36,825 bases of DNA from a virus. The stretch lies in IMG/VR virus record IMGVR_UViG_3300020219_000035, positions 1 to 36,825 of that record; one strand, written 5' to 3'. The translations under genes were made by a program, and so were the position numbers. Of this stretch, positions 947 through 36,825 are shown one piece after another (the first letter of the stretch is position 1; each line of letters starts with the position of its first letter). The notes under the pieces are model-generated. The model was given only the letters and a program-made list of their open reading frames with translations. It was not told the origin of the DNA and searched no databases.

Positions 947-3752
947 CGACCGGTGCGCCGTACATGGGGACGCGCGAGTCGTAGAGCCCGCCGAGTCGCA
1001 CCGCGCCCTGGATGCCGCGCGCCGGGTCGTGCATCGTCCCGAGCGCATCTACGCCGGCATCCATGATGACGCCCAGCGCTGGAATCTCCTTGAATTGCTC
1101 CGCCGGGTCGTCGCCGTACTTCTGGCCGAGGACTGGCGTCGCCGCCAGATAGGCAGCATCGCCAGCGGTGCCAGTCGTGCCCGTGAGACTGGACCGAGCC
1201 ACCGTCTGCCAGGCCGGCAGCCGCCCCGTGGTGGCGCTCTTGGCGACAGAGGTCGCGGCGTTGGCGGCACCGCCGTACAGCGCCATGCCGCGCATACGCT
1301 GCCAGCCAAGGTCGATGAGTGATTGGTCCTGCGCCTTGTAGCCGTCAAGTAGTGGCCTGATCACGTCGTCCATCATGAGCTGCGTCTGCTTGATGCCAAA
1401 CGTCTTGTACTGCAACGCGAGCGCACCCAGCGGGTGCTTTGCCAGCGCCGGCAGCTCGCCCGCACCCGCGACGTGCTGCCAGCGGTTGGCGAGCGTCTGG
1501 ATGCTGTTTAGCCACGTCCCCTTCGACAGCTGGCCCTGCGCGAGCTCGTCGGCGAGCGCCTGTGGCGTGGTGCCCATCTCCGCGGCCCGCTTCGTCAACG
1601 CACCGGAGAACGTCCCGCCCGCCTGCGTGACCTGCAGCGCCTCGTGCGCCACGTCGTCGATCGCCGGGACGGCAGCATAGGACGCCGGCCCGCGCAGGAA
1701 ATTCTCGGCCTTCTTCATCATGCCCAGCGGCGTGACCCAGCCACCCACCGTCGAGTCGCCGGCACCCATGCGGCCGAGCGTCGTGTACTCCGTCAGGTCG
1801 GCATTCTGCGGCCCAGCCGCGAAGAGTTCCTTGAGCACGGGGTTCCGCTTCACCATGGCGTTGCCGCGCAAGGCCATCTTCGGGCCGCCGGCCATGACCA
1901 TGGCGGTCGCCGCCTGCCCACCCTGCGTCATCCATGCCTTCGACAACGCCACGTCCGACGTCTTGCGCGCGAGTGTCCGCGCGAAGTCGCCACCCACTTC
2001 AGTCTGTGGGACGTGGTAGTCGGCGAGTGCCGTCAGGAACCGGTTCGCGCCCGCGTTGTTCCCGGTGTTCCGCATGTGCTCATAGAGCGTCCTCGCCTCT
2101 CCCGGCACCACGAAGTCGCGCGCACCGCCACGCGACACGGGCATCGTGATTTTCACCGGTGCGCCACTGAACGCAGCGGCGCTACCGATGCGCTTCGCCT
2201 CCTGGTGCAGGTAGCCAGGGACCGTCTCGTGTAGCGCCTTGTTTACCGGGTCCATGTCGTTGCCGGTGCGCGCATGACCGACGGCGCTACTCTCCGCAAG
2301 CCCGCCCAGCCGTCGCTCGGCTTGCCCGACCGTGAGCTTGGGGTCCTTTGCCAGCATGCGCTCGATGCCGCTCAGGCCCTCGAGCTTGGGGTCGGTGACG
2401 GCGCGGCGCGGCGCGTAGTTGCTGGCCCGTTGCGCTTCGGCGTAGTACGGCCCGCCCGTGTCCTCGCCACCGAGGAACTGGTATTTGACGCCACGGTCGC
2501 CCAGCTCGAATGCGCGCTCGCGGGCGTCCTGGCCGTAGCCGAGGTCATCATAGACCCCAGCCGACCGACGCCCCTCGTCTACCTCGTTGAACAGGTCGCG
2601 CAGCGGACGCGACTGTACCGCTGCGGCGCTCGGGTTCTTGAGCCGAGCCGAGAACTGCGCGGCGAGCTCGCCCTGTGACGGCGCGCCGGCGCGATGCGTG
2701 AGGTTCTGGCCGGTCAGCTCGTCGTAGACGGCGGCACTCTCACGCCCCGGCTGGAACCCCTCCAGCGCATCGTCTCCGCGCTGGCCGTAAAAGTTCTTGG
2801 CACTCTTGAAGACGTTGTTCTGCCGCTCCAGCTTGTCCGCAACCATGCGCTCGATCGGGTCGTCGCTCTTGCGCATGGCGCGGATGGACCCATCCCAGAG
2901 CGACTCGCGGACATTCTGCGCGGATGTGCTCGGCGGGCTCGCTGGGTAGCCCTCGGCGCGCTGGGACACCAAGGATGCCTCGTCGTACTCGATCTTTGGC
3001 CGGTTAAGGATGTCCTGGATGTTGAGCGGCGAGTCGTCCATCAACTGCTCGCCGTAGCGTGGCCCACGGCGCGCTGCCCAGTCGGACGCCTTGTCGATCG
3101 CACGAGACGCCAGCCCGCCCGCTTTGTTGCCGACGTAGCGCGCCGCCGAGCCGACCGGCTGCGCGATGGCGTCCGGCGTGATCGCCCGGATGCCGCGCCC
3201 TGCTGCCTTCGCGCCCTGCCACGCAAGCGGGATACCCGACAGTGCCGCGTCGATGCCGATGCTCTGGGGGTCGAGCACCGCGTCGCTCACGTCGTCGCCA
3301 CGGATCGCCGCCGTACCGCCACGCGCCGCCGCGCCGAGCCCGAGCCCGGTCGCCAGTACCCCGGCAGCACCCATCGCCGGCAACGCCAGCCCCGTGGCGA
3401 GCGCCGCAGCCGGTGGGCCATACGTGGCAAGGTTGTCGGTATCCTCGGGCGTCCACAGGGACGGGATGCCCTTCTGCACGCCTGCCTCGTCGGCGAGGTG
3501 CCCGAACCAGTTGCGCGCGCCGGGGTTGTCGAAGGCGTCGGCTGCTGGCTTCGACAGGGCGTCGCCGGCCGTGTCACCCAGGAGCGAGCCGGGAGCCTTC
3601 ATCGCACGGATGCGGTCGAACGCGCTTAGCTGACCGCCGTTCTTCTCGGCACGGATGCGGTCGAACGCGCTAGCTCCAGGTTCGCCAAGGTCGGTGCTCG
3701 GCTCAGCCAGGCGACCCGACCTCTCGGCACGGATGCGGTCAAATGCGTTCAC
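906..3752 (-). CDS. Large internal virion / DNA-ejection protein candidate
   Basis: 948 aa, started at GTG 3752, which overlaps the upstream stop by 4 bp (GTGA). The N-terminus carries three copies of AFDRIRA (residues 3-9, 29-35 and 44-50), then a hydrophobic Ala/Gly-rich stretch around residues 110-150. The rest is a long mostly helical region with no enzymatic motif I recognise. Size, position as the last gene of the tail/internal-protein cluster, and the hydrophobic segment fit a podovirus internal virion (ejection) protein, which forms a channel or is injected with DNA. This role is inferred from gene order, not from a family match. The triple N-terminal motif may be a packaging or docking tag. 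Confidence 0.6.
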   Translation of the reverse strand: MNAFDRIRAERSGRLAEPSTDLGEPGASAFDRIRAEKNGGQLSAFDRIRAMKAPGSLLGDTAGDALSKPAADAFDNPGARNWFGHLADEAGVQKGIPSLWTPEDTDNLATYGPPAAALATGLALPAMGAAGVLATGLGLGAAARGGTAAIRGDDVSDAVLDPQSIGIDAALSGIPLAWQGAKAAGRGIRAITPDAIAQPVGSAARYVGNKAGGLASRAIDKASDWAARRGPRYGEQLMDDSPLNIQDILNRPKIEYDEASLVSQRAEGYPASPPSTSAQNVRESLWDGSIRAMRKSDDPIERMVADKLERQNNVFKSAKNFYGQRGDDALEGFQPGRESAAVYDELTGQNLTHRAGAPSQGELAAQFSARLKNPSAAAVQSRPLRDLFNEVDEGRRSAGVYDDLGYGQDARERAFELGDRGVKYQFLGGEDTGGPYYAEAQRASNYAPRRAVTDPKLEGLSGIERMLAKDPKLTVGQAERRLGGLAESSAVGHARTGNDMDPVNKALHETVPGYLHQEAKRIGSAAAFSGAPVKITMPVSRGGARDFVVPGEARTLYEHMRNTGNNAGANRFLTALADYHVPQTEVGGDFARTLARKTSDVALSKAWMTQGGQAATAMVMAGGPKMALRGNAMVKRNPVLKELFAAGPQNADLTEYTTLGRMGAGDSTVGGWVTPLGMMKKAENFLRGPASYAAVPAIDDVAHEALQVTQAGGTFSGALTKRAAEMGTTPQALADELAQGQLSKGTWLNSIQTLANRWQHVAGAGELPALAKHPLGALALQYKTFGIKQTQLMMDDVIRPLLDGYKAQDQSLIDLGWQRMRGMALYGGAANAATSVAKSATTGRLPAWQTVARSSLTGTTGTAGDAAYLAATPVLGQKYGDDPAEQFKEIPALGVIMDAGVDALGTMHDPARGIQGAVRLGGLYDSRVPMYGAPVASWMTELLSSDEE
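3602..3751 (-). repeat. Triple AFDRIRA-coding repeat
   Basis: Three near-identical 20-25 bp units, reading CGGATGCGGTC on the plus strand, begin near 3606, 3653 and 3732. They encode the three N-terminal AFDRIRA motifs of the large virion protein. Confidence 0.85.
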
Positions 3753-5341
3753 CTACCGCGACCCTTGTTCCAGTAGGCTTCGGCCAGGTCCATCGGAATC
3801 CCGGCCCTGTCAGCGGTCTGCGCGAAGGTACTCTCGTCCGCATCACGCAGGGAGGGCAGCAGCCTAGCCATGGTCTGCGCGAACTCGGCCTTCTCGCCCT
3901 CGCTATAGCCGCCCAGGCCGGAACTCCTGAAGATGTCCAGTATGCGGGAGACATCCGCGCCGCTCACGTACGAATTCGCCGTGCTCGGCATCGGCAGTAG
4001 CGGGATCGCCTGGCCTGGCCTGCTGGTCGGTGAATCGGACTCCAGCGACTTGAGCGCCGATGGCCCAGTGCGGTAGTCGGGCACGTCGTCGCTCCACCAG
4101 TGCGCCCCGGACTTCATCGGGATATCGAACAGCGACGCAACATCGTCGGGGGTCTGAGCCGGGCGTCCGTTGGTTCCACTGCCCGCGAGCGCGTCCGCGA
4201 CTTCCTTGCGGATCTGCGTCTCCCGGCTACCTGGACCCTGCGACCCGGACGCGACGCCACCCGTGTTGCCGTAGACGCCCATTGCCTTGTTAGTCTCGGC
4301 AACGTCCCTGTTCGCGGCCGCGATCTTGGCAGCCAAGGCTAGCGGATGTACCTCGGCGCCCTGATCTAGCTCCTGTTGCTGCTTCTCGATTCCGAGGCTG
4401 TCCGACGTGACCTTGGAGTTCCAATACTGATCCTGGCTGCGCGAGTTCATGTCGTAGACACCCTGCGACTTGCCCTGCTGCTCGCTGACCAGCGAGGGTC
4501 GCATCTCGTCGATCGTCTGCTGCCGCCCGCGCGACTCGGCGGCGTTTGCGTTACTGGCACCAGCCTGCGCGAGGTTCGCAGTCGCACCTGTGCCCTTGAG
4601 CCGAAGGTCGGCCTCCTGCTGCCGTGGCATGTAGGTCGTGCGGACATCCTCAGTCTCGGTCTGTTGCCGCACCAGTCCCGACTGGTCCTGGTCTAGCTGC
4701 GCGCTGGCTACCTGCTTGAGTCGCTGCGCTTCCTGCAGCCCGATCTTGCCGGTGGCGTACGCCATCTTGATCGCAGCGTGAACCTGGTTCATCTGCTGCT
4801 GCGCCTTGTCACGGCCAAGGTTGTTCGTCCACTCGACGAAGCCCTTCATCGTGGACTGCGGCGCACCACCAAGGCTCGACGGCGCACCAGCCGTGCCGCT
4901 AGCCTCGCCGGAGCCAGTGCTCTGCGTCTGGAAGCCCGAGATCTGGTCGATGCCGAGCGCCTGCCGCTGCGCCTGCGGCATGTTCTGCAGCATCTCGTAC
5001 TCGCCCTGCGCCTGCTGCCGCCCCTGCGCGCCGGGCAGGTTGAGCGTGTCCTGTACGAAATCGCGACCCTCGTTGAGTAGCCCGAACGGTAGCTTCAGGA
5101 TCGCCTGCGCCACTTCCCACGCGCTGGTTTCGTCGTCTGGCACGCCCTGGTTGCCGCGCTCGTGGCTCGACGCGCGCCCGTACGCGGCGTCAGGTAGCTG
5201 CTGCGAGCGCGGGTCAATCATGCGTTCCACGGCACTCGTCGCCGCCGGTACAAAGCTCGGGTCTTGTTCCGCCATGAGGCTGTAAGCGGACTGCGGGACG
5301 GCCCGCGTCGCGTTCGCTAGCGAGTAGTCCTCGTAGTTCAT
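3749..5341 (-). CDS. Ala/Gln-rich internal virion protein candidate
   Basis: 530 aa, starting at ATG 5341 in an ATGA overlap with the upstream gene and ending in a GTGA overlap with the downstream one. The sequence is rich in Ala, Gln and Ser. It has helical, coiled-coil-like stretches in the middle (residues ~170-330, many QQQ and charged residues) and no membrane segment or catalytic motif that I see. Position between a Gly-rich hydrophobic protein and the large terminal virion protein suggests an internal core or ejection protein. No family was recognised, so the role is inferred from synteny with podovirus late operons. Confidence 0.55.
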   Translation of the reverse strand: MNYEDYSLANATRAVPQSAYSLMAEQDPSFVPAATSAVERMIDPRSQQLPDAAYGRASSHERGNQGVPDDETSAWEVAQAILKLPFGLLNEGRDFVQDTLNLPGAQGRQQAQGEYEMLQNMPQAQRQALGIDQISGFQTQSTGSGEASGTAGAPSSLGGAPQSTMKGFVEWTNNLGRDKAQQQMNQVHAAIKMAYATGKIGLQEAQRLKQVASAQLDQDQSGLVRQQTETEDVRTTYMPRQQEADLRLKGTGATANLAQAGASNANAAESRGRQQTIDEMRPSLVSEQQGKSQGVYDMNSRSQDQYWNSKVTSDSLGIEKQQQELDQGAEVHPLALAAKIAAANRDVAETNKAMGVYGNTGGVASGSQGPGSRETQIRKEVADALAGSGTNGRPAQTPDDVASLFDIPMKSGAHWWSDDVPDYRTGPSALKSLESDSPTSRPGQAIPLLPMPSTANSYVSGADVSRILDIFRSSGLGGYSEGEKAEFAQTMARLLPSLRDADESTFAQTADRAGIPMDLAEAYWNKGRGR

Positions 5342-22509: not shown

Positions 22510-22542
22510 GTCGCAGCTTCGAAGCCGCTGCGCAGGCACGGT
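22510..22542. repeat. 33-bp interspersed repeat, copy A
   Basis: Begins GTCGCAGCTTCGAAGCC and ends TGCGCAGGCACGGT. It contains the inverted arms GCAGC...GCTGC and the palindrome CTGCGCAG. It matches the copies at 33994 and 36672 with 1-2 substitutions and lies between a glycosyltransferase and the first left-block gene. Confidence 0.85.
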
Positions 22543-22584
22543 CAGCGTCATGCCGATCCTCCCCGCGAGGTCAGGCGGAGACTA

Positions 22585-23340
22585 TCAGTTTTTTTCGTCC
22601 TCGGCTACGACCCGGTCATGGTCAAACCGCACTTCGCGCCTCCACCGCGAGTAGAATGTGCGGATGTTCAAGAACTCCGCGGCGAACCGCCCTTCGGTCT
22701 GCCCCTCGTAGTGCGTCAGGACGGACCGCGGTTCGTATCTGACCCTGCCTCCATCTCGCCTCGCCCGCATGCACAGGTCGACGTCCTCGAATCCGTTGAC
22801 GTAGTTCTCGTCGAATCCGCCAAGCTTGGCGAAGTCTGCCTTTCGGATCGCGATGCACGCACCGGTCACGGCCTGGAGGTCCTTCGCGCGGCGGATACCG
22901 GGGATGGAGTCTGGGTCCTTTCGCTGGTGGACGTGGAAAAATTGAAGGGTGCGCAAGGCCGTCATTCCCGCATGCTGGACGGTGCCGTCGGGGTAGAGCA
23001 GGAGCGATCCCGCGACCCAGATCGATGGGTCCGAGAGTGCCTCGACGAGCGGATCCAGCCATCCGGGGTGCGCGACGGTGTCATTGTTCAGGAACACGAG
23101 GACCTCGCCGCCGGCGATCTTCGCTCCAGCATTGCAGCCCTTGGCGAATCCCTGGTTCGAGTCGAAGTGCAGCACCGCGACATCTCGGAAGCCCGACGTG
23201 ATGTTGGCCAGCGTGTCGTCGGTGGAGCCATTGTCAATGACGATGAGTTCTGCTTCGGGAGCCGTATCTCTCAGCGAGTAGAGGCATACCTCGGTCAGAT
23301 CCCAGCGGTTGAGGACGGGTGTGATAATGCTCGCCTTCAC
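22585..23340 (-). CDS. GT2-family glycosyltransferase
   Basis: 251 aa from GTG 23340, which overlaps by GTGA the end of the frame that continues the preceding glycosyltransferase. The GT-A core is complete: KASIITPVLNRWDLTEVCL, LIVIDNGSTDDTLANI, GFAKGCNAG, FLNNDTVAHPGWL (metal/nucleotide site, NND in place of DxD), and GFDENYVNGFEDVDLCMRAR. It resembles rhamnosyltransferase-type GT2 enzymes. It would transfer a sugar from a nucleotide donor; acceptor unknown (cell surface, virion protein or DNA). Confidence 0.85.
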   Translation of the reverse strand: MKASIITPVLNRWDLTEVCLYSLRDTAPEAELIVIDNGSTDDTLANITSGFRDVAVLHFDSNQGFAKGCNAGAKIAGGEVLVFLNNDTVAHPGWLDPLVEALSDPSIWVAGSLLLYPDGTVQHAGMTALRTLQFFHVHQRKDPDSIPGIRRAKDLQAVTGACIAIRKADFAKLGGFDENYVNGFEDVDLCMRARRDGGRVRYEPRSVLTHYEGQTEGRFAAEFLNIRTFYSRWRREVRFDHDRVVAEDEKN

Positions 23341-24195
23341 TGACGACGACCGCCGGCAGATCCGGCCATCATAGGCGCCTCGACCCACTCGATCGGCCGT
23401 ACGTCATCCACGATCAACAGCCGCAGCGCACGCCGCTTGTCTTCTGGTGAAAACTGGCCAGTGCTGCTCTCGGGCACGTTGCGACTCGAGCGACATCCAC
23501 TCTTGGTTGCTGTGCTCGATCCCCGATCGCGAGCGGAGGTAGAGGCCCAACACCTCGGGGACGTGGATGAAGCTCGCCCCCTGCGAGACGCATCGCAGGT
23601 AAAACTCGTAGTCGTTTGCCAGCAGGGTCTCGTCGTAGAGCCCGAACCTGTCGTGCATGCTCCTGCGGTAGACCGGCTGCGGACCGACAAAGCACCGATC
23701 GAATAAAGCAGCGGGGTCGAAGTCCGGCCAGCGGAAGTGGTCGACGATCGCCGTGGTCGTGAGCAACGTCTGGTTCTCGGTCTCCGTGACCGCACAGTCC
23801 GCATAGGCGAGGTCCTTCTCTGGGTGTTGCTCGAGCACCTCAACGAGGCGCCCGAGAGCACGGGGGTCGTGGCGATCGTCGGCGTTCGCCATCGTGAGGT
23901 ACTTGCCGCGGGCTGCCCGCACGATGGTGTTGGTTGTGGCGGCGCAGGTCTCACGCGTCTCGGTCCGGTGGTAGGCAATGTCGACCCACGGGAGGCCGTG
24001 CATCGCGGCCTGGACGATGTCGCGCTCCCGCTCAGGTGACGCGGCATCGACGACGAGGATCTCCATTTGTCGCAAGATCGTCTGGTTCAGCAGGTCGGCG
24101 ATCAGGCCGGCGACGAACCGCTCGGCGTTGTAGAGGCTGACCATCGCGGTCAAGATCGGCTCAGCGCAGCGCTCCGGTGTTCGCTCCCAGTTCAA
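23337..24195 (-). pseudogene. GT2-family glycosyltransferase with apparent frameshift
   Basis: TTG 24195 overlaps the upstream stop (TTGA). The GT-A core is intact: PILTAMVSLYNAERFVAGL, ILVVDAASPERERDIV, LTMANADDRHDPRALG (DD site), and LLANDYEFYLRCVSQG. In frame it ends at 23404 with a tail, TRRQAACAAAVDRG, that looks unnatural. Dropping one base from the four-A run at 23450-23453 joins it to SPEDKRRALRLLIVDDVRPI, which continues to TGA 23337-23339, exactly overlapping the next gene's GTG. This indicates a one-base insertion (mutation, slippage site or sequencing error). The catalytic region precedes the shift, so activity may survive. Confidence 0.75.
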
Positions 24196-24935
24196 GCTGC
24201 AGCTCTAGGCGCGCGCCACCCGGGCGCCGCACGCTTGCCGTCCGTCCCTGCGTCGCGGTGACCGGAGGAGTGCATCCGATACGTCAGCAGCACCTCGCCA
24301 ACGCCGATGCCGTAGAACCCCGCGTCGGCCATTCGCAGCCACATCTGGTGATCTTCGGCGATCGGCACATCAGGGAAGCCGCCGACATCAACGATAGCCG
24401 ACTTCCGGAGTACCGCAGATCCGTGGATGAAATTGCCGCCTCGCAGCCGGTCCACATCCCACGCCCCGAGTCCGACCACCAGTCCGTCGAGCTCGGGGCG
24501 GTCCGTGGGATCGTGAGTCTTGGTGTACCTGGCCCCCGAGAAGACGATGCCAAGCTTCGGGTCGTGACCGTGCTCGCTGATCGCGCGAGCGTGCGCGGCG
24601 GCGAATCGTGGCAAGACCATGTCGTCGGCGCTTACCATGCAAACCCACTCGGTCGAGAGCGTCGGCAGGTAGGTGTTGAGGTTCCAGACGATGCCGCGTC
24701 GCTCGGTGTTCCTGACCAGATCGACGCGCCCGTAGGACTGCGCAATCTCCGACGTGGCGTCCGTGGAGCAGTCGTCGACCACGAGGACCTCGGCGAACCC
24801 CGGGGCGTCGCAGGTGAGTATCGAATCGAGCGCCTCGGGTAGGAAGTGCGCATAGTTCCACGAGCAAACGAGCACGCCGATTTGACATCCTCCCCGCCCT
24901 GAAGGGACGGGGATTCCCCGGAAGTTACGCGGCAC
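24192..24935 (-). CDS. GT2-family glycosyltransferase with IS-derived N-terminus
   Basis: 247 aa from GTG 24935. The GT-A core starts at about residue 19 (IGVLVCSWNYAHFLPEALDS), with VLVVDDCSTDATSEIA, VCMVSADDMVLPRFAAAH (ADD metal site) and IAEDHQMWLRMADAGFYG. The first ~18 residues, including RNFRGIPVPSGRGGC, are encoded by the right end of the tnpB element, and the start codon lies inside the last codons of tnpB (11-bp overlap). The insertion therefore removed the native start and replaced it. The enzyme could still be made by coupling to tnpB. It belongs to the same glycosyltransferase series as its two downstream neighbours. Confidence 0.8.
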   Translation of the reverse strand: MPRNFRGIPVPSGRGGCQIGVLVCSWNYAHFLPEALDSILTCDAPGFAEVLVVDDCSTDATSEIAQSYGRVDLVRNTERRGIVWNLNTYLPTLSTEWVCMVSADDMVLPRFAAAHARAISEHGHDPKLGIVFSGARYTKTHDPTDRPELDGLVVGLGAWDVDRLRGGNFIHGSAVLRKSAIVDVGGFPDVPIAEDHQMWLRMADAGFYGIGVGEVLLTYRMHSSGHRDAGTDGKRAAPGWRAPRAAA

Positions 24936-25050
24936 GGCGTACCTCCCGAGTAGGTTCGCGCTTCAGCGGCACCGTTGTGCCTCCACGCGCATTGACGGCA
25001 CGCCCTGCCGCCAGGATATTCAGCGCCGCGTTGGTGTCTGCGTTCGCTGA
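24883..25050 (-). ncRNA. Predicted omega-RNA (reRNA) scaffold region
   Basis: In TnpB elements the guide RNA overlaps the 3' end of tnpB and runs through the right-end hairpin; its guide is the flanking DNA immediately outside the element. Here that flank is the start of the glycosyltransferase (ATCGGCGTGCTC in the sense direction). The position is inferred from the family. The extent is approximate and no promoter was identified. Confidence 0.35.
24891..24913. repeat. IS right-end hairpin
   Basis: An imperfect palindrome of two paired blocks (TCCCCG/CGGGGA and CCCT/AGGG) with one bulged A. It is followed outward by the ATGTCAA-type end that borders the glycosyltransferase coding sequence. 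Confidence 0.85.
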
Positions 25051-26115
25051 GCGGCCACACGATTGGCATCTGAATTTCGCTTGGCTCTCGCGATTTTCCG
25101 GTGCCGTGTGGCCGCACGCATAGCACTGCTGCGACGTGTACGCCGGGTTGACTTCGATCAGCTCAACACCGGCTAGTTCCGACTTCTCTCGTAGGCGCCT
25201 GGCAAACAAGCCCCAGCGCTGCGCCAGGATCACACGGCTCAGGCCCGCCTTCTGGCGGACGTTCTTGCCGGGCTCCTCGATGGAGCCCTTGACGCTACGC
25301 ACCATGTTCCGAATCTGAAGCTTCTCGATCACCACGAGACGCGACGCGCGGACGATCCGCGTCGTCTGCTTCTCGACCCAGTCTTTTGCGCGGTCCGACT
25401 CGCGCGCCCGCAGCCGAGCGATGGCGAGCTTGACCCGGCCACGACGGACACTGCCCTTCACCCGCCGCGCGAGTTTGCGCTGTAGGCGCAACAGGTGGCG
25501 CCGTTCGGGCAACGACAGCGACGGTGTCTGACTAAACGTCCCGTCGGAGAATGCTAGCGACCGTGCGACGCCACGGTCGATACCGACCTCGCCTTCGCCT
25601 CTCGTGAGCGCCTGCGGCTTGACCGCGAACGCCAGCCACCAGCGACCCGCCGCGTCCCGTCGGATGCGATACGACTTGATGCCGAGCGGCACCGGTCGTG
25701 TGATTCGAAAGCGTACTCGACCAACCTTGGGAACGAAGACGGTGGCCGCCCTCCGGTGCAGAATCTCGACTGACCTCTCGGTGACGTTCACGACGCGGAA
25801 GCCTTCGTGCTGCCCACGCTTTCGCCAAGTCGGACGCCCAAAGTGGCCCGGACGTTTCCACCAGTTAATGAACGCCTGCGCCAGGTCTTTGAGCGCCTGC
25901 TGCTGAATGCTTGACGATCCCGTACCAATCCAGTTGTGCTCCGCCCGAAGTTGCACGAGTTGGCGGCATTGCGCAGCCCATCCTGGCGTCGGACCACGAT
26001 CGTGGCGGTACTGGTTCGCCTGCTCAAGGGCGAGATTCCAGACGAAGCGTGCCTGAGCAGCATGCTCCAGAAGTGCTTCGGCTTCGTCCGTCGTGGGCTG
26101 TAGGCGTTGACGCAT
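24925..26115 (-). CDS. tnpB: TnpB RNA-guided endonuclease
   Basis: 396 aa from ATG 26115. An N-terminal helix-turn-helix region (RQRLQPTTDEAEALLEHAAQ) is followed by a wedge-like region to ~170. A split RuvC domain has all three catalytic acids: D180 (GIDRGV), E264 (VVIEKLQI) and D360 (NADTNAALN). The zinc site is CYACGH (C331, C334) with CQSCGR (C350, C353). Length is normal for TnpB. Known TnpBs cut DNA guided by an omega-RNA copied from the element's right end and help the element persist. All key residues are intact, so it may be active. Confidence 0.92.
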   Translation of the reverse strand: MRQRLQPTTDEAEALLEHAAQARFVWNLALEQANQYRHDRGPTPGWAAQCRQLVQLRAEHNWIGTGSSSIQQQALKDLAQAFINWWKRPGHFGRPTWRKRGQHEGFRVVNVTERSVEILHRRAATVFVPKVGRVRFRITRPVPLGIKSYRIRRDAAGRWWLAFAVKPQALTRGEGEVGIDRGVARSLAFSDGTFSQTPSLSLPERRHLLRLQRKLARRVKGSVRRGRVKLAIARLRARESDRAKDWVEKQTTRIVRASRLVVIEKLQIRNMVRSVKGSIEEPGKNVRQKAGLSRVILAQRWGLFARRLREKSELAGVELIEVNPAYTSQQCYACGHTAPENRESQAKFRCQSCGRSANADTNAALNILAAGRAVNARGGTTVPLKREPTREVRRAA

Positions 26116-26166: not shown

Positions 26167-27105
26167 TCAGCGACCATCGTCTCTATCTCCTCCGTAGATC
26201 GCGAGCTTATTGCGGATCGTGCGCTCCCCGATTGCCATCATCTTTGCCGCCGCGATGCGATTGCCGCCCGTCGCGATCAGCGTGTCCTCGACCAGTCGCC
26301 GCTCGACCTCTGCGAGCGTCAACCCAGCAAGCGAACCCAGTGCGCGGAACTCCTCAGGCACCAGCTCGAGCTGGATGTCCTGCCCTTCGATCACGTCGCC
26401 GGCGCACAGTAGTACTGCCCGATGGATCACGTTCTCGAGTTCGCGGACGTTCCCCGGCCACGGATGTTGACGGAGCATGATGCTCGCCTCCGGTGATAGA
26501 GACAGCGGCCGCGCCGAGAACTGCCCGACCACGTGCTCGACCAGTGGGATGATGTCGTCGCGTCGTTCTCTCAGCGGCGGGATCGTCAGCAATAGGACGT
26601 TCATCCGGTAGTACAGGTCAGCCCGGAACGTGCCGTTGTCGACCATCTGACGCAGGTTGCGGTTGGTGGTTGCGATGATGCGCACGTCTAGGGGGACGGG
26701 GGACGACCCGCCGAGCCGATCGAGTTCCCGCTCCTGCAACACCCGGAGCAACTTCGCCTGCAGGACCGTCTCCATCTCGCCGATTTCATCGAGGAGCAAC
26801 GTCCCGCCGTTGGCCTGCTCGAACTTGCCGAGCTTCCTCATCGTCGCGCCGGTGAACGCTCCGCGCTCGTAGCCGAACAGCTCGGACTCCAGGAGGTCGC
26901 GGGGGATGGCGGCGCAGTTGATCGCCACGAATGGCTTATCCTTGCGCGGGCTCGACTCGTGGATGAACCGAGCGAGAAGTTCCTTGCCGACGCCGGTCTC
27001 GCCGCCGATCACGACAGGCACGGCACGCTGCGCGGCGATCTCAGCGACGCGCAAGATGCGCGCCACGAAAGCGGAGTGGGTGATAATCTGGCGACTCACG
27101 AGCAC
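26167..27105 (-). CDS. Sigma-54 activator (bEBP) without sensor domain
   Basis: 312 aa from GTG 27105 (GTG 27099 also possible), 10 bp after the upstream stop. A complete AAA+ core: Walker A GETGVGKE (35-42), the sigma-54-contacting GAFTGA loop (82-87), Walker [13 protein letters not shown] (100-111), the arginine-finger region FRADLYYR (160-167), and WPGNVREL (216-223). A C-terminal Fis-type helix-turn-helix follows (~264-303, [21 protein letters not shown]). There is no receiver, GAF or PAS domain, as in PspF, so it would be constitutively active or controlled by a partner. It would hydrolyse ATP to open sigma-54 promoters. It is unusual inside a phage late region. Confidence 0.92.
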
Positions 27106-27115
27106 GCTGCCAAGT

Positions 27116-27379
27116 TCAATGCTGCGTCTCTTTAACCAGCAACGCGTCGAGCACGGTTTTCTGTGCGCCAACCTTTGCGACCAGCGCCGCGACAACTGCC
27201 GCAATCGACTCCTGTGTCAGTTTCGCGAAGTCGGGCGCCTTCTTGGTCAGGATCGCGCGGTAGACCTCGCCCGCGAGGTCGATGTCGAACGACACCCTGA
27301 CGTGGCCTACGTCGGTAAATTCCATCGTCCCAGACGCGGGAAGCGGAGCGGTGAGCGCGACTTCGACGTGAGTACTCAT
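27116..27379 (-). CDS. Hypothetical protein upstream of bEBP
   Basis: 87 aa from ATG 27379 (ATGA overlap with the upstream gene). Two parts: a strand-rich N-terminus ([32 protein letters not shown]) and a helical C-terminus ([18 protein letters not shown]). No family recognised. The tight spacing to the sigma-54 activator (10 bp) makes it a candidate partner or regulator of that protein. Confidence 0.6.
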
Positions 27380-27639: not shown

Positions 27640-28650
27640 CTACGCCGCGGCCTTGCGTTCGAGCTGCTCAAGGACAGAGCGTAGCTTCTCGCCGGCGTGC
27701 TTCCATGTCCATGCCGAGTGCATGCGCAGCGCCCCCCGTGCGCCCTTCGCCAATGCCCTGGGATAGTTCCGGTACACGTCGAGCATCTTCCGCCCGAGTG
27801 ACCCGACGTCGGCGAATGCCTCACGATGCGTCCACCCCAAGATATCCGTCGTCTCGTCGAAGGTGTGCGTCACGAAGGAGCACACGCTCTCGTCGAGGAA
27901 GTCCAACTGCCCGCCGTACTTCGTGGTGATGAGCGGCAGGCCGGTCGCGAGTGCCTCTTGCATGATGAGACCCCAGCCCTCACCGGTGCTCGGCAGAACC
28001 GCGCAGTGCGCCTCGTGAAAGAGCGTGACCAGGTCGTGGCGGGGGAGCTTCCGGCTGTCGAAGATCGTGTTGCCGAGCTTCACCATCTTGCCCAGACCAT
28101 TCTCATCGGTGGTCTTCAAGTAGAGCAGCAGGTCGTCGCACTGGGCGAACCCTGCGAGCTTCCATGCGTTCGCGAGGCGGATCGCACCCTTGCGGGCATT
28201 TGGTGCGCCGCAGTGCTGGAACACGAACGGTCCCCGCAGACCCTCATCCCGAGGTGGACGTCGTAGCTCGTAGGTCCACAGCTTCGGGTCGAAGCCCAGC
28301 GGGACAACGGAGCAGCGCTTGCGCGTGGCCTTCAGGGCAGGGGCAAAGAGGTCGAGGCAGAACTTCGACGGCGTGATGACGTGGTCGGCCTCGGCGAACC
28401 CGCGCTCAAACTCAGGCGGTACGGGCATCGCCTCGTACATCGTGAAGAGGTAGTTGACCTTGCCCGGGATCGGCTCGAAGTTCGCCGGGTGGCAGAAGTG
28501 CAGCGCAGTGTCGGCGTCGTTGGTGACCTCGACGCCGGCCGCAGCCACAGCGTCGCGCAAGGCAACGGACGCCGTCCGGTAGCCCAATGAATTCCCGGCC
28601 GCGTCGGCGTCGGTGTTGAGCATCGCCCAGTGCAGGCGCACCGGACTCAC
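27640..28650 (-). CDS. GT4-type glycosyltransferase
   Basis: 336 aa from GTG 28650, overlapping the upstream stop (GTGA). A GT-B organisation: an N-terminal domain (LNTDADAAGNSLGYR, NYLFTMYEAMPVPPE, DHVITPSKFCLDLF), a linker, then a C-terminal nucleotide-sugar domain with an EX7E motif (E224 and E232 in STGEGWGLIMQEALATGLP) and VTLFHEAHCAVLPS before it. It transfers a sugar to an unknown acceptor. It is the first gene after the head module and one of four glycosyltransferases in 6 kb. Confidence 0.85.
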   Translation of the reverse strand: MSPVRLHWAMLNTDADAAGNSLGYRTASVALRDAVAAAGVEVTNDADTALHFCHPANFEPIPGKVNYLFTMYEAMPVPPEFERGFAEADHVITPSKFCLDLFAPALKATRKRCSVVPLGFDPKLWTYELRRPPRDEGLRGPFVFQHCGAPNARKGAIRLANAWKLAGFAQCDDLLLYLKTTDENGLGKMVKLGNTIFDSRKLPRHDLVTLFHEAHCAVLPSTGEGWGLIMQEALATGLPLITTKYGGQLDFLDESVCSFVTHTFDETTDILGWTHREAFADVGSLGRKMLDVYRNYPRALAKGARGALRMHSAWTWKHAGEKLRSVLEQLERKAAA

Positions 28651-33964: not shown

Positions 33965-33997
33965 GTGATCGTGTCGGGTGTCGCCGTGATCGTGTCG
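33965..33997. promoter_or_regulatory. Shared motif pair upstream of portal gene
   Basis: GTGATCGTGTCGGGTG (33965-33980) and GTGATCGTGTCG (33986-33997), spaced 21 bp apart (about two helical turns). The second runs straight into the 33-bp repeat. It lies in the 236-bp gap between the terminase and portal genes, 135 nt or more upstream of the portal ATG. Single-copy matches occur at 22479 and 30319. Confidence 0.65.
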
Positions 33998-34026
33998 CAG
34001 CTACGAAGCCGATGCGCAGGCACGGT
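33994..34026. repeat. 33-bp interspersed repeat, copy C
   Basis: GTCGCAGCTACGAAGCC followed by GATGCGCAGGCACGGT. It differs from copy F at one position. It lies between the terminase large-subunit stop and the portal motif pair. A weaker partial likeness (CGAAGCCGATCCGCAG) occurs near 33856. Confidence 0.85.
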
Positions 34027-34066
34027 CCGCCGGCTGACCGTGGGGAGAATGTATCATAACGAAGGT

Positions 34067-35551
34067 CTACCTACGAACACGACCGACGAAGATCTGCGAC
34101 TGCAGGTTGGCTCTCGCTCTAGCGGAGAATGCCAACATGATCGATTCCGCCCGATCGGGAGACTTCGCGCCGCGCCTTCTGAGGGACTCCTTTGACTCGA
34201 ACTTTCGTCGGCCTTGGCTGTCTGGCGCGTAGCGAATGTTGGCGAGTTGGCGAAACGCCTTCTCGTCCACGAGGCCGCCGAACTGCGCCATCCCGTCCGC
34301 GTCGGGCTTCATCCGATCGCGGAGAGCCCAACTCAGCTCATCGCGCAAGAGGGGGAAGTTCTCCTTGTCGGTCGGTGACTCTGACACCTTGATCGGCACG
34401 CACCGGAAGCCCGCTTGCTTCAGTGGGGTGGCGAAGTACGCGCCCACCCCGATCGCGTCATACGCGACGATGATGTCCTTGCCCCTGAACGGCTTGAGGG
34501 CCTCGATCATCTCGCCCTGGATCGTCTCGGGGTTCTTCGACCATGAGATCGGGAACCCCGGCTGGATCATCGGGCCGTGACGGACGGTGAGCACGGTCTC
34601 GTCCTCGCCGGCCTCCGCCACGTCGATGCCAGCCTGCCAGTCGGCATCGGCCGGGACCTCGATCGTCCGCTTCTTCGCAGCTTCGAGCCACGCCAAGGGA
34701 TAGGCCGCGTACTGGCTCTGGCTCGGGAACTGCGCGAGCACCCTCGACTCCCAGAGCGGGGAGTCGACGCCACATTCGACGTACATCTCCTTCACCCAGT
34801 GACGGGTGGCGAGGTAGGGGCGCACGTTGTCCTCGAGCGCGTCGGGCGACAGCTCGAGCAGCGTCTTGAGCGTCTCCTGCCACGGCTCCTCCGGGCGCTT
34901 CTTCAGGGTCGTTAGGTTCGGCGTGTCGAAGGCCGAGATGGTGTAGCAGCGGTATCCGCTTCCGACCGCGGTGAACGCCTCGCTGTACGGACCGCCTTCG
35001 ACGTCGGGATTGCCAAGCATCAGAATGCGGACGTCGCCGCCGGCGCGGATACCACGGACGGCGTCGAAGATCCCCGTCCCGATGCCGGGGGCCTCGTCGA
35101 TCACGACCAAGATCCGGCCGTGGAAGCCCAAGGCGTTGACGCCGGCGTCGGTCGACATGCCGAGCGCGAAGATATCCGGCGCGATCTGCAGCTCGGTGTT
35201 GAGCAGCTTCCCCCCGAGCGGGTATCGGGCTTTCGTGTGGGCCGTGCGGATCGCGGGCCACATCGTCTTGGTGACCTGACGGAACGTCGGGGCGGTGGTG
35301 ATCGTGATGCCGCCATGGATCGTCCACCATAGAACGGTGTCTGCGGATAGGTTCGTCTTCCCGGTGGCGTTCGCACCCTTGACGGCGATGCGCGCTCGCG
35401 GGACGGTCAGGTCATCCGCGATCTGCTTCTGGACCTCCCACCGGTCCCGACCGAGGACGTACTCCCCGAAGAAATTAGGGTTGGCTTCAGTCTCACTGAC
35501 GAAGTCGAGTTCGTCAGCCGTGAGTGGACGTGGCTGCTTCGCGCTGCGCAC
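34067..35551 (-). CDS. terL: Terminase large subunit (TerL)
   Basis: 494 aa from GTG 35551 with GGGAGG just upstream, overlapping the small subunit by 38 bp. ATPase domain: Walker A KGANATGKT (58-66), Walker B ILVVIDEAPG (147-156), and a coupling-type ILMLGNP (176-181). Nuclease domain: GIDVAEAGEDETVL (D310), IIVAYDAIGVG (D365), and a C-terminal acidic segment near SPDRAESIMLAFS. It pumps DNA into the prohead and cuts concatemers. Together with the portal and small subunit it forms a complete packaging set. Confidence 0.93.
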   Translation of the reverse strand: MRSAKQPRPLTADELDFVSETEANPNFFGEYVLGRDRWEVQKQIADDLTVPRARIAVKGANATGKTNLSADTVLWWTIHGGITITTAPTFRQVTKTMWPAIRTAHTKARYPLGGKLLNTELQIAPDIFALGMSTDAGVNALGFHGRILVVIDEAPGIGTGIFDAVRGIRAGGDVRILMLGNPDVEGGPYSEAFTAVGSGYRCYTISAFDTPNLTTLKKRPEEPWQETLKTLLELSPDALEDNVRPYLATRHWVKEMYVECGVDSPLWESRVLAQFPSQSQYAAYPLAWLEAAKKRTIEVPADADWQAGIDVAEAGEDETVLTVRHGPMIQPGFPISWSKNPETIQGEMIEALKPFRGKDIIVAYDAIGVGAYFATPLKQAGFRCVPIKVSESPTDKENFPLLRDELSWALRDRMKPDADGMAQFGGLVDEKAFRQLANIRYAPDSQGRRKFESKESLRRRGAKSPDRAESIMLAFSARARANLQSQIFVGRVRR

Positions 35552-36095
35552 GAGCCTCCCGTGCTCGAGCTGCGAGGTCGGCGAGGCTCAGGTCGTTTCC
35601 GGCGCCGTCGGTCTGCGCCACCTTGTCGACCACCACGCCCATGATCTTGGCCCAGTCCATGGTTGACTGCCGGGCGAGGTTCAGAGCGGCGACCTTCTGA
35701 CCCTTGAACGAGGCTGAGTCGTTGTCGTCACGGCGGGCGGTTCGTTTCGTGCCGCGGATCTCGACCTCTTCGCCGAACAGGACCGATCGCTCGCATTTCT
35801 CGTCGAAGTCCGCAGCCTCAAATGCTCGGCGCGCGACTTCCTCAAGTACGGCCGCGGCCCTTGCCCGATGCGCTTCCTGGCTGTCCCCGACGCGCTCGAC
35901 CCACAGCTCGGCCAGGCGAGCTACGTCCATGCGGATCGTCTTCTCGTTTACGCCGATCGACTGGCTGATCGCGCGACATGACGCCCCCGCCAGGCGGAGT
36001 CGCTCGACGCGCTCCATGCGGTCGAGAACGTCGCGATCGCGTCGCCACGGGAGCTGTCCCTTGCGACCTTTCGGGGCTCCGCGCCTAGCTGGCAT
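35514..36095 (-). CDS. Terminase small subunit (TerS) candidate
   Basis: 193 aa from ATG 36095. Basic N-terminus (PARRGAPKGRKGQ), then a helix-turn-helix at ~33-62 (LAGASCRAISQSIGVNEKTIRMDVARL), a long helical oligomerisation region and an Arg-rich C-terminus. Position directly before TerL and the DNA-binding N-terminus fit a TerS that recognises the packaging site. TerS proteins diverge strongly, so the call depends partly on location. Confidence 0.8.
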   Translation of the reverse strand: MPARRGAPKGRKGQLPWRRDRDVLDRMERVERLRLAGASCRAISQSIGVNEKTIRMDVARLAELWVERVGDSQEAHRARAAAVLEEVARRAFEAADFDEKCERSVLFGEEVEIRGTKRTARRDDNDSASFKGQKVAALNLARQSTMDWAKIMGVVVDKVAQTDGAGNDLSLADLAARAREARAQREAATSTHG

Positions 36096-36132: not shown

Positions 36133-36435
36133 TCACGCGCTCCGCCTCGCCCACATGTCCGCTTCGGTCTGCCTCGGGCGCGCCCTCTCGACGTGGATTC
36201 GCATACCGCAGAACTCGCGCCCATAGGCCGACTCGATCGTCGTCGCTAAGTCGGCGAGTGACAACATTCGCACGACGGCGAACCCCCTCGACTTGCCGTC
36301 TTCGTCCTTGCCGATATGCACGCGAGAGATCTTCCCGAGGTCAGAAAGAGCCGTCGCCAGCTCTTCCTCCGTGACGCTGTAGTGCAGTTGATTCAGGAAG
36401 ATTTCAACCGGTTCTCTGATTTCACCCACACCCAC
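36133..36435 (-). CDS. RRM-domain RNA-binding protein
   Basis: 100 aa from GTG 36435 (GTG 36429 also possible). One RNA-recognition motif spans nearly the whole protein: RNP2 IFLNQL (12-17), a helix VTEEELATALSDLGKI, the strand SRVHIGKDEDGKSRGF with RNP1 RGFAVVRM (50-57), a second helix ADLATTIESAYG, and a last strand MRIHVERARP. The aromatic residues F13 and F52 expected to stack on RNA are present; the third RNP1 aromatic is V54. Small single-RRM proteins occur in some bacteria but are rarely reported in phages. It sits just before the terminase genes. Confidence 0.85.
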   Translation of the reverse strand: MGVGEIREPVEIFLNQLHYSVTEEELATALSDLGKISRVHIGKDEDGKSRGFAVVRMLSLADLATTIESAYGREFCGMRIHVERARPRQTEADMWARRSA

Positions 36436-36444
36436 AACCCCCTT

Positions 36445-36478
36445 GTCGCAGCAACGAAAGCCCCTGCGCAGGCTTGGT
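36445..36478. repeat. 33-bp interspersed repeat, diverged copy D
   Basis: GTCGCAGCAACGAAAGC followed by CCCTGCGCAGGCTTGGT, one base longer than the consensus. It lies 10 bp upstream of the RRM gene start. Confidence 0.65.
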
Positions 36479-36539: not shown

Positions 36540-36572
36540 TACGCAGCTACGAGGCCGCTGTGCGGGCTTTGA
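36540..36572. repeat. 33-bp interspersed repeat, diverged copy E
   Basis: TACGCAGCTACGAGGCC followed by GCTGTGCGGGCTTTGA, with several substitutions from consensus. It lies in the 160-bp gap between the RusA-like gene and the RRM gene; I see no gene in that gap. Confidence 0.55.
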
Positions 36573-36595: not shown

Positions 36596-36823
36596 TCAAC
36601 CTGGGGGCGATCGGCGCGCACGGGCCGCCGCTGCTCGCGTGGGGGGGTGATTGCTTCGGTTGGACTCTCCGGTCGCAGCTACGAAGCCGCTGCGCAGGCA
36701 CGGTGACTCCTTCCGTGGCAGAACCATCACTAGAATCTCGCAGCGTGGCTCCCCGTAGTGCTTCGACGCGTTCTCGTGCACGACCTGTGCGTCGTCGCGC
36801 CAGATGATCCCGGTGAGCGCATC
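36596..36823 (-). CDS. RusA-like Holliday junction resolvase, C-terminal part
   Basis: The frame enters from the right edge (5' end missing). Its first visible residues, DALTGIIWRDDAQVV then HENASKHYGE, match the conserved C-terminal region of RusA-family resolvases, where the DALNG-x-x-xxDDxQV segment carries catalytic aspartates. The domain appears to end near LVMVLPRKESP; the remaining ~36 residues are Arg/Ala/Pro-rich and encoded partly by repeat copy F, so the tail may be an acquired extension. RusA resolves branched DNA before packaging and is often found upstream of phage terminase genes. Confidence 0.75.
   Translation of the reverse strand, partial: DALTGIIWRDDAQVVHENASKHYGEPRCEILVMVLPRKESPCLRSGFVAATGESNRSNHPPTRAAAARARRSPPG
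36672..36704. repeat. 33-bp interspersed repeat, copy F
   Basis: GTCGCAGCTACGAAGCC followed by GCTGCGCAGGCACGGT. It lies inside the 3' end of the RusA-like frame, coding for its C-terminal extension in the minus direction. Confidence 0.85.
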
Positions 36824-36825
36824 TT

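Follow-up and report, generated by a model that had tools for sequence, protein, structure and literature searches.

A single-RRM protein with a degenerate RNP1 motif encoded beside the terminase genes of an uncultivated phage

The window, by which we mean the whole stretch of 36,825 nucleotides analysed here, is a linear contig of unestablished completeness and, judging from its genes, a genuine phage. The gene order is RusA - RRM - small terminase subunit (TerS)-like - large terminase subunit (TerL) - portal - protease - capsid (Table 1), and the PHROGs families matched downstream of the RRM gene are those of TerL, portal or head morphogenesis, protease and capsid. The TerS role is probable, from position and from a helix-turn-helix match. 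Two further contigs, L002 and L003, belong to the same phage species. They are the only close relatives recovered when IMG/VR was searched with the window protein, and a TerL scan for sister phages returned the same two. L003 is 99.9% identical to the window over the shared part and extends its other side, with sulfatase, SNF2-methyltransferase, replication-type and RusA genes. The sulfatase-family enzyme is encoded upstream in this phage (L003 11-1210; PF00884, E 6.9e-40).

Other genes of the window may be mentioned here. A TnpB gene (RNA-guided nuclease family) occupies 24925-26115 (-), with about 53% identity to mycobacterial TnpB; a perfect 60-bp copy of tnpB-end DNA is found at L003 3723-3782, away from any tnpB, like a stripped transposon end. 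Between tnpB and the head genes, 26167-27204 (-) encodes a sigma-54-type AAA+ transcription activator (phrog_7998, E 1.9e-53; about 50% identity to bacterial sigma-54-dependent regulators). Four glycosyltransferase-like genes lie among the late genes (22585-24935 and 27640-28650, both (-)); one matches phrog_2170 (E 8.6e-22) and the other three were judged by eye. Hints on the host from plasmid comparison conflict, TnpB being of actinobacterial type and the sigma-54-type protein proteobacterial or acidobacterial. A host search by TerL in 349 Pseudomonadota genomes gave a best match of 27% identity.

Table 1. Coordinates of the features discussed (window positions unless a contig is named).
Feature	Positions	Strand	Basis
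RRM gene, 100 codons from GTG 36435 or 98 aa from GTG 36429	36133..36435	(-)	Pfam RRM_1, predicted RRM fold
RRM domain, residues 12-81	36193..36402	(-)	Pfam match, complete profile
RNP2, IFLNQL, residues 12-17; position 5 Q for N	36385..36402	(-)	alignments
RNP1, RGFAVVRM, residues 50-57; position 5 V for F, position 7 R for E/D	36265..36288	(-)	alignments
Shine-Dalgarno-like AAGGGGG	36438..36444	(-)	read from sequence
Hairpin repeat copy, ends at RRM Shine-Dalgarno	36445..36478	(-)	nhmmer E 9.8e-9; fold -14.9 kcal/mol, z -1.2
Hairpin repeat copy	36542..36572	(-)	nhmmer
Hairpin repeat copy, within rusA frame end	36672..36705	(-)	nhmmer
Hairpin repeat copy, between terL and portal	33994..34027	(-)	nhmmer
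Hairpin repeat copy, between two later genes	22510..22544	(-)	nhmmer
Hairpin repeat copies in sister contigs	L002 3063-4836; L003 3447-7222		
rusA, 3' part, cut by window end	36596..36825	(-)	complete in L003 6541-7071, PF05866 E 1.6e-18; L003/window alignment
Probable terminase small subunit	35514..36095	(-)	phrog_645 and phrog_3855 matches, helix-turn-helix; before terL
Terminase large subunit	34067..35551	(-)	phrog_2 E 1.1e-18; phage terminase matches by tblastn
Tail-linked RRM loci L019-L095	e.g. L039 5164-5972, L095 250-1011		

An open frame of 100 codons is unremarkable in the window (about 7% expected by composition); it is the RRM family match, not the size of the frame, that excludes a chance reading frame. 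GC by codon position (0.60/0.45/0.77) is like that of the neighbouring genes. The Shine-Dalgarno-like sequence stands 8 nt from the GTG at 36429 and 2 nt from that at 36435. Because the longer spacing fits, GTG 36429 is probably the start. The gene is nucleotide-identical across the window, L002 and L003, three contigs too alike for measuring selection on it. A scan for sigma-70 promoters and terminators around the gene found none, and Rfam gave no match at the gathering threshold.

From the family match and from prediction, the protein can be said to fold as a standard RRM. Pfam RRM_1 (PF00076) matches over its full profile (1-70/70) at E 1.2e-12, with 47.9 bits for a curated cut-off of 20.7. 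A phmmer search of the PDB retrieved 56 distinct sequences (E<=0.001), almost all of them from RRM proteins. An AlphaFold model, computed from an alignment of the window RRM with 22 RRMs of viral contigs, has the strand and helix order E10-15, H23-31, E36-43, E49-57, H60-70, E81-84, that is beta-alpha-beta-beta-alpha-beta, with a core pLDDT near 90. Foldseek with this model yielded 813 PDB matches at E<=0.001; the matches listed are RRM proteins superposing at an rmsd of about 1 A, among them bacterial PG1 (7jly) at 1.1 A. The earlier note had read a phage-encoded single RRM adjoining the terminase genes from the sequence and had proposed a profile search, a structure prediction and a search for viral homologues; the first two agree with it, and the placement of the gene is as it described. 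The third is considered below.

The nearest sequence relatives, with 31-40% identity, come from bacteria and from bacterial plasmids; they are single-RRM proteins, many of them cyanobacterial. No close cellular relative was found among the bacterial sequences searched, and an alignment of about 75 residues with 30-40% identity is too little for reliable phylogenetic placement. The window protein consists of one RRM and no other domain, and its 98-100 residues fall within the size of the Rbp type (about 80-100 aa). Proteins of that type, namely Rbp1 and Rbp2 of Synechocystis and those of Acaryochloris, Nostoc and Chondrocystis plasmids, likewise have one RRM of about 80 residues without a second domain. 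The window protein differs from them in being phage-encoded, in having no glycine-rich tail and in its RNP motifs: RGFAVVRM does not fit the Rbp-type RNP1 pattern [RK]GF[GA]FVEM, and RNP2 has Asn-Gln where Gly-Asn is usual.

These motifs were compared with 35 RRM domains from sampled Pseudomonadota genomes, collected without RNP1 seeding; the tallies leave out loci from the RNP1-pattern-seeded scans (IMG/VR and cellular). RNP1 position 5, V in the window, is F in 35/35 of these domains; position 7, R in the window, is E or D in 33/35; and RNP2 position 5, here Q, is N in all 35. RRMs of plasmids and phages agree with this sample, RNP1 position 5 being F in nine of nine. Of the three aromatics that usually stack on RNA, two are kept, F13 (RNP2 position 2) and F52 (RNP1 position 3). 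The earlier note had RNP1 and RNP2 both present, and so they are; a fully canonical form of the two is not supported. On this comparison RNP1 appears degenerate, with one of the usual RNA-contacting residues lost.

The earlier note also held that RRMs are rarely described in phages. For annotated records this is right. PHROGs v4 contained no match for the window RRM, nor for single-domain RRMs from six other viral contigs, and BFVD contained no significant phage protein, its 12 matches at E<=0.001 all being proteins of eukaryotic viruses. Three RRM queries run against 50,697 phage records of GenBank retrieved only Microcystis phage MaAM05 and two records of 'Acinetobacter phage MD-2021a' (CAKLQH020000005.1, CAKLQF020000005.1). 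The latter were rejected as evidence of a phage RRM because genes for ribosomal proteins L28 and L33, topA and rep surround the RRM gene, which looks like host chromosome. MaAM05 is therefore the one genuine GenBank phage found with an RRM. In this 274-kb phage, a 217-aa protein annotated as hypothetical (L004 2992-3645) has two RRM-like stretches in tandem. In uncultivated viruses RRMs are numerous: a pattern search of IMG/VR gave at least 102 RRM-encoding contigs, a lower bound set by the pattern, some of which may be host DNA. TerL was present on 14 of 30 tested IMG/VR RRM records; phage RRMs therefore exist well beyond the window. The data thus support the view that RRMs are rare in annotated phage records, yet recurrent in uncultivated viral contigs.

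Many of these RRMs share one setting. Of the 78 other IMG/VR loci retained, 51 have their single-RRM gene directly after a probable tail-assembly chaperone gene, on the same strand in every one of the 51, and in 49 of them at a distance of 159-243 nt. Tail and baseplate genes follow where the contig continues, and in L095 a single open frame encodes both chaperone and RRM. The chaperone identity is probable, from sub-threshold Pfam matches (PF10109, E 2.7e-4) and from position. In the gap between chaperone and RRM lies a second frame resembling a chaperone frameshift product (L039 5331-5624), without Pfam match. This arrangement suggests that the tail-linked RRM acts on the translation of tail genes, perhaps on chaperone frameshifting. 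A literature search found no paper combining an RRM with a tail-assembly chaperone. In a search of Acidobacteriota for a cellular counterpart, RRMs occurred in 153 of 199 genomes, and a tail chaperone accompanied none of the 20 best loci. The tail-linked proteins are, like the window protein, phage-encoded single RRMs, but they differ in their place in the tail module and in a canonical RNP1, and are 25-36% identical to it. Another pair, from the 41-kb phages L018 and L057, has a single RRM (83 aa) about 6.5 kb upstream of a terminase gene; it differs from the window in a canonical RNP1 and in the glycosyltransferase operon that comes after it. These two RRM genes are syntenic, with 60/84 positions identical, and a dN of 0.23 against a dS of 1.02 indicates purifying selection. 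By position, with RusA and TerS as neighbours instead of a tail chaperone, the window RRM fits neither of these groups.

The flank of the window gene is variable. A 34-nt palindromic repeat, CACMGTGCCTGCGCAGSGGCTTCGTASCTGCGAC, occupies about a dozen sites over the window, L002 and L003, always in gene orientation, and the RRM gene sits in its densest cluster. In the viral contigs scanned, the exact repeat core occurred only in contigs of this phage species. The stems show a compensatory change in two copies and a broken or shifted pair in three; their folding energies are not exceptional and no better than those of shuffles. Immediately after the stop codon of the RRM gene, L002 contains a 48-bp insertion that includes a repeat copy and is absent from the window. 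L002 also carries about 1.1 kb of its own between rusA and the RRM gene (L002 3229-4331), just upstream of the latter and flanked by repeats on both sides. Two small ORFs in this segment (3676-3891 and 3903-4187) could be a toxin-antitoxin-like pair; neither matched a Pfam family above cut-off. The sober reading is that the repeat is a mobile palindrome marking a cargo site.

Considering these properties, we give about even chances to a model in which the protein is a bacterial-type single RRM carried as phage cargo, which would bind RNA and act post-transcriptionally on phage or host RNA, by analogy with cellular homologues. A divergent gene, probably of bacterial origin, would have been acquired by the phage or an ancestor and kept as cargo at the border of the recombination (rusA) and packaging (terS-terL) genes. 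Single-stranded RNA would most likely be bound on the beta sheet by F13 and F52 together with R50 and R56; since RNP1 position 5 lacks its F, binding would be weaker than that of a canonical RRM. In RRMs generally, loss of this aromatic weakens binding and need not abolish it. Bacterial single RRMs do bind RNA in the cases studied: Synechocystis Rbp1 and Rbp2 (PMC9333190), the Bacteroides single RRM-1 protein RbpB, whose binding to the multicopy FopS RNAs was shown by CLIP (PMC11697453), and A. baumannii AB-Elavl, in which both RNP motifs are divergent and AU-rich RNA is still bound, with lower affinity (PMC9313427). By analogy with Rbp1, Rbp2 and RbpB, the protein may change how well phage or host transcripts are translated, or how stable they are, during infection. 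RNA binding by the window RRM is plausible; degeneracy at positions invariant in the bacterial sample and a net charge of about -2 speak against it. These same features, V at RNP1 position 5, N and Q for G and N in RNP2 and the acidic charge, would be expected if the RRM fold had lost RNA binding by its beta sheet and served for protein-protein interaction, a role that some eukaryotic RRMs have. Such a loss seems unlikely, given that F13, F52 and the basic ends of RNP1 are retained and that AB-Elavl binds RNA despite its divergent motifs.

Other models give the protein a more particular task. RNA binding might neutralise an RNA-based host defence, as does T4 TifA, a small phage RNA-binding protein that counters ToxN (PMC10853763). 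The variable, cargo-like site would suit such a protein, and TifA offers a precedent in being small, phage-encoded and RNA-binding, the last being presumed for the window RRM. However, TifA makes its RNA contacts with a basic helix at the C terminus and has not been reported to be an RRM protein, and no defence-related neighbour was shown; we regard counter-defence as very unlikely. There is a slim chance that the protein binds the hairpin repeats of its own phage and controls the genes bearing them, with autoregulation through the copy at 36445-36478. The position of this copy at the RRM Shine-Dalgarno, the dense cluster around the gene, the constant orientation and the compensatory stem change fit this idea, as does RbpB, also a single RRM-1 protein with a multicopy family in play. 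However, FopS are RNAs bound in CLIP, whereas the repeats of the window, about 34 nt long, are elements of phage DNA; pairs are broken or shifted in three copies, folding is no better than in shuffles, one copy lies within the rusA frame, a single RRM usually favours single-stranded RNA, and the insertion polymorphism also suits a plain mobile palindrome. Slimmer still is the chance that these mobile repeats, in front of phage genes including the RRM gene itself, form a phage-encoded RNA regulon; if true, each repeat insertion would place further genes under RRM control. In many temperate phages, the slot between rusA and terS houses a late regulator (RinA, ArpU, Q), and the RRM protein, placed there, might be imagined as a late-gene regulator acting on RNA. 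This is highly improbable: the regulators known from this slot bind DNA, the RRM genes of other phages are placed elsewhere, and the sigma-54-type activator is an alternative candidate. Least probable of all, and close to negligible, is a packaging factor assisting the adjoining terminase. In L002 a repeat insertion separates the RRM gene from terS, and no recurrent RRM-terminase pairing appeared among the other phage RRMs examined; given this and the variable, cargo-like spot, nothing favours such a role.

The RRM is the commonest and main RNA-binding fold of eukaryotes, plants and animals alike, and is little understood in bacteria. The survey raises the question of why an RRM gene is retained directly behind the tail-assembly chaperone in dozens of uncultivated phages. 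For its part, the 98-aa protein of the window, whose fold is clear and whose RNP1 carries a lesion, is a small system in which to study RRM function in prokaryotes and their viruses.
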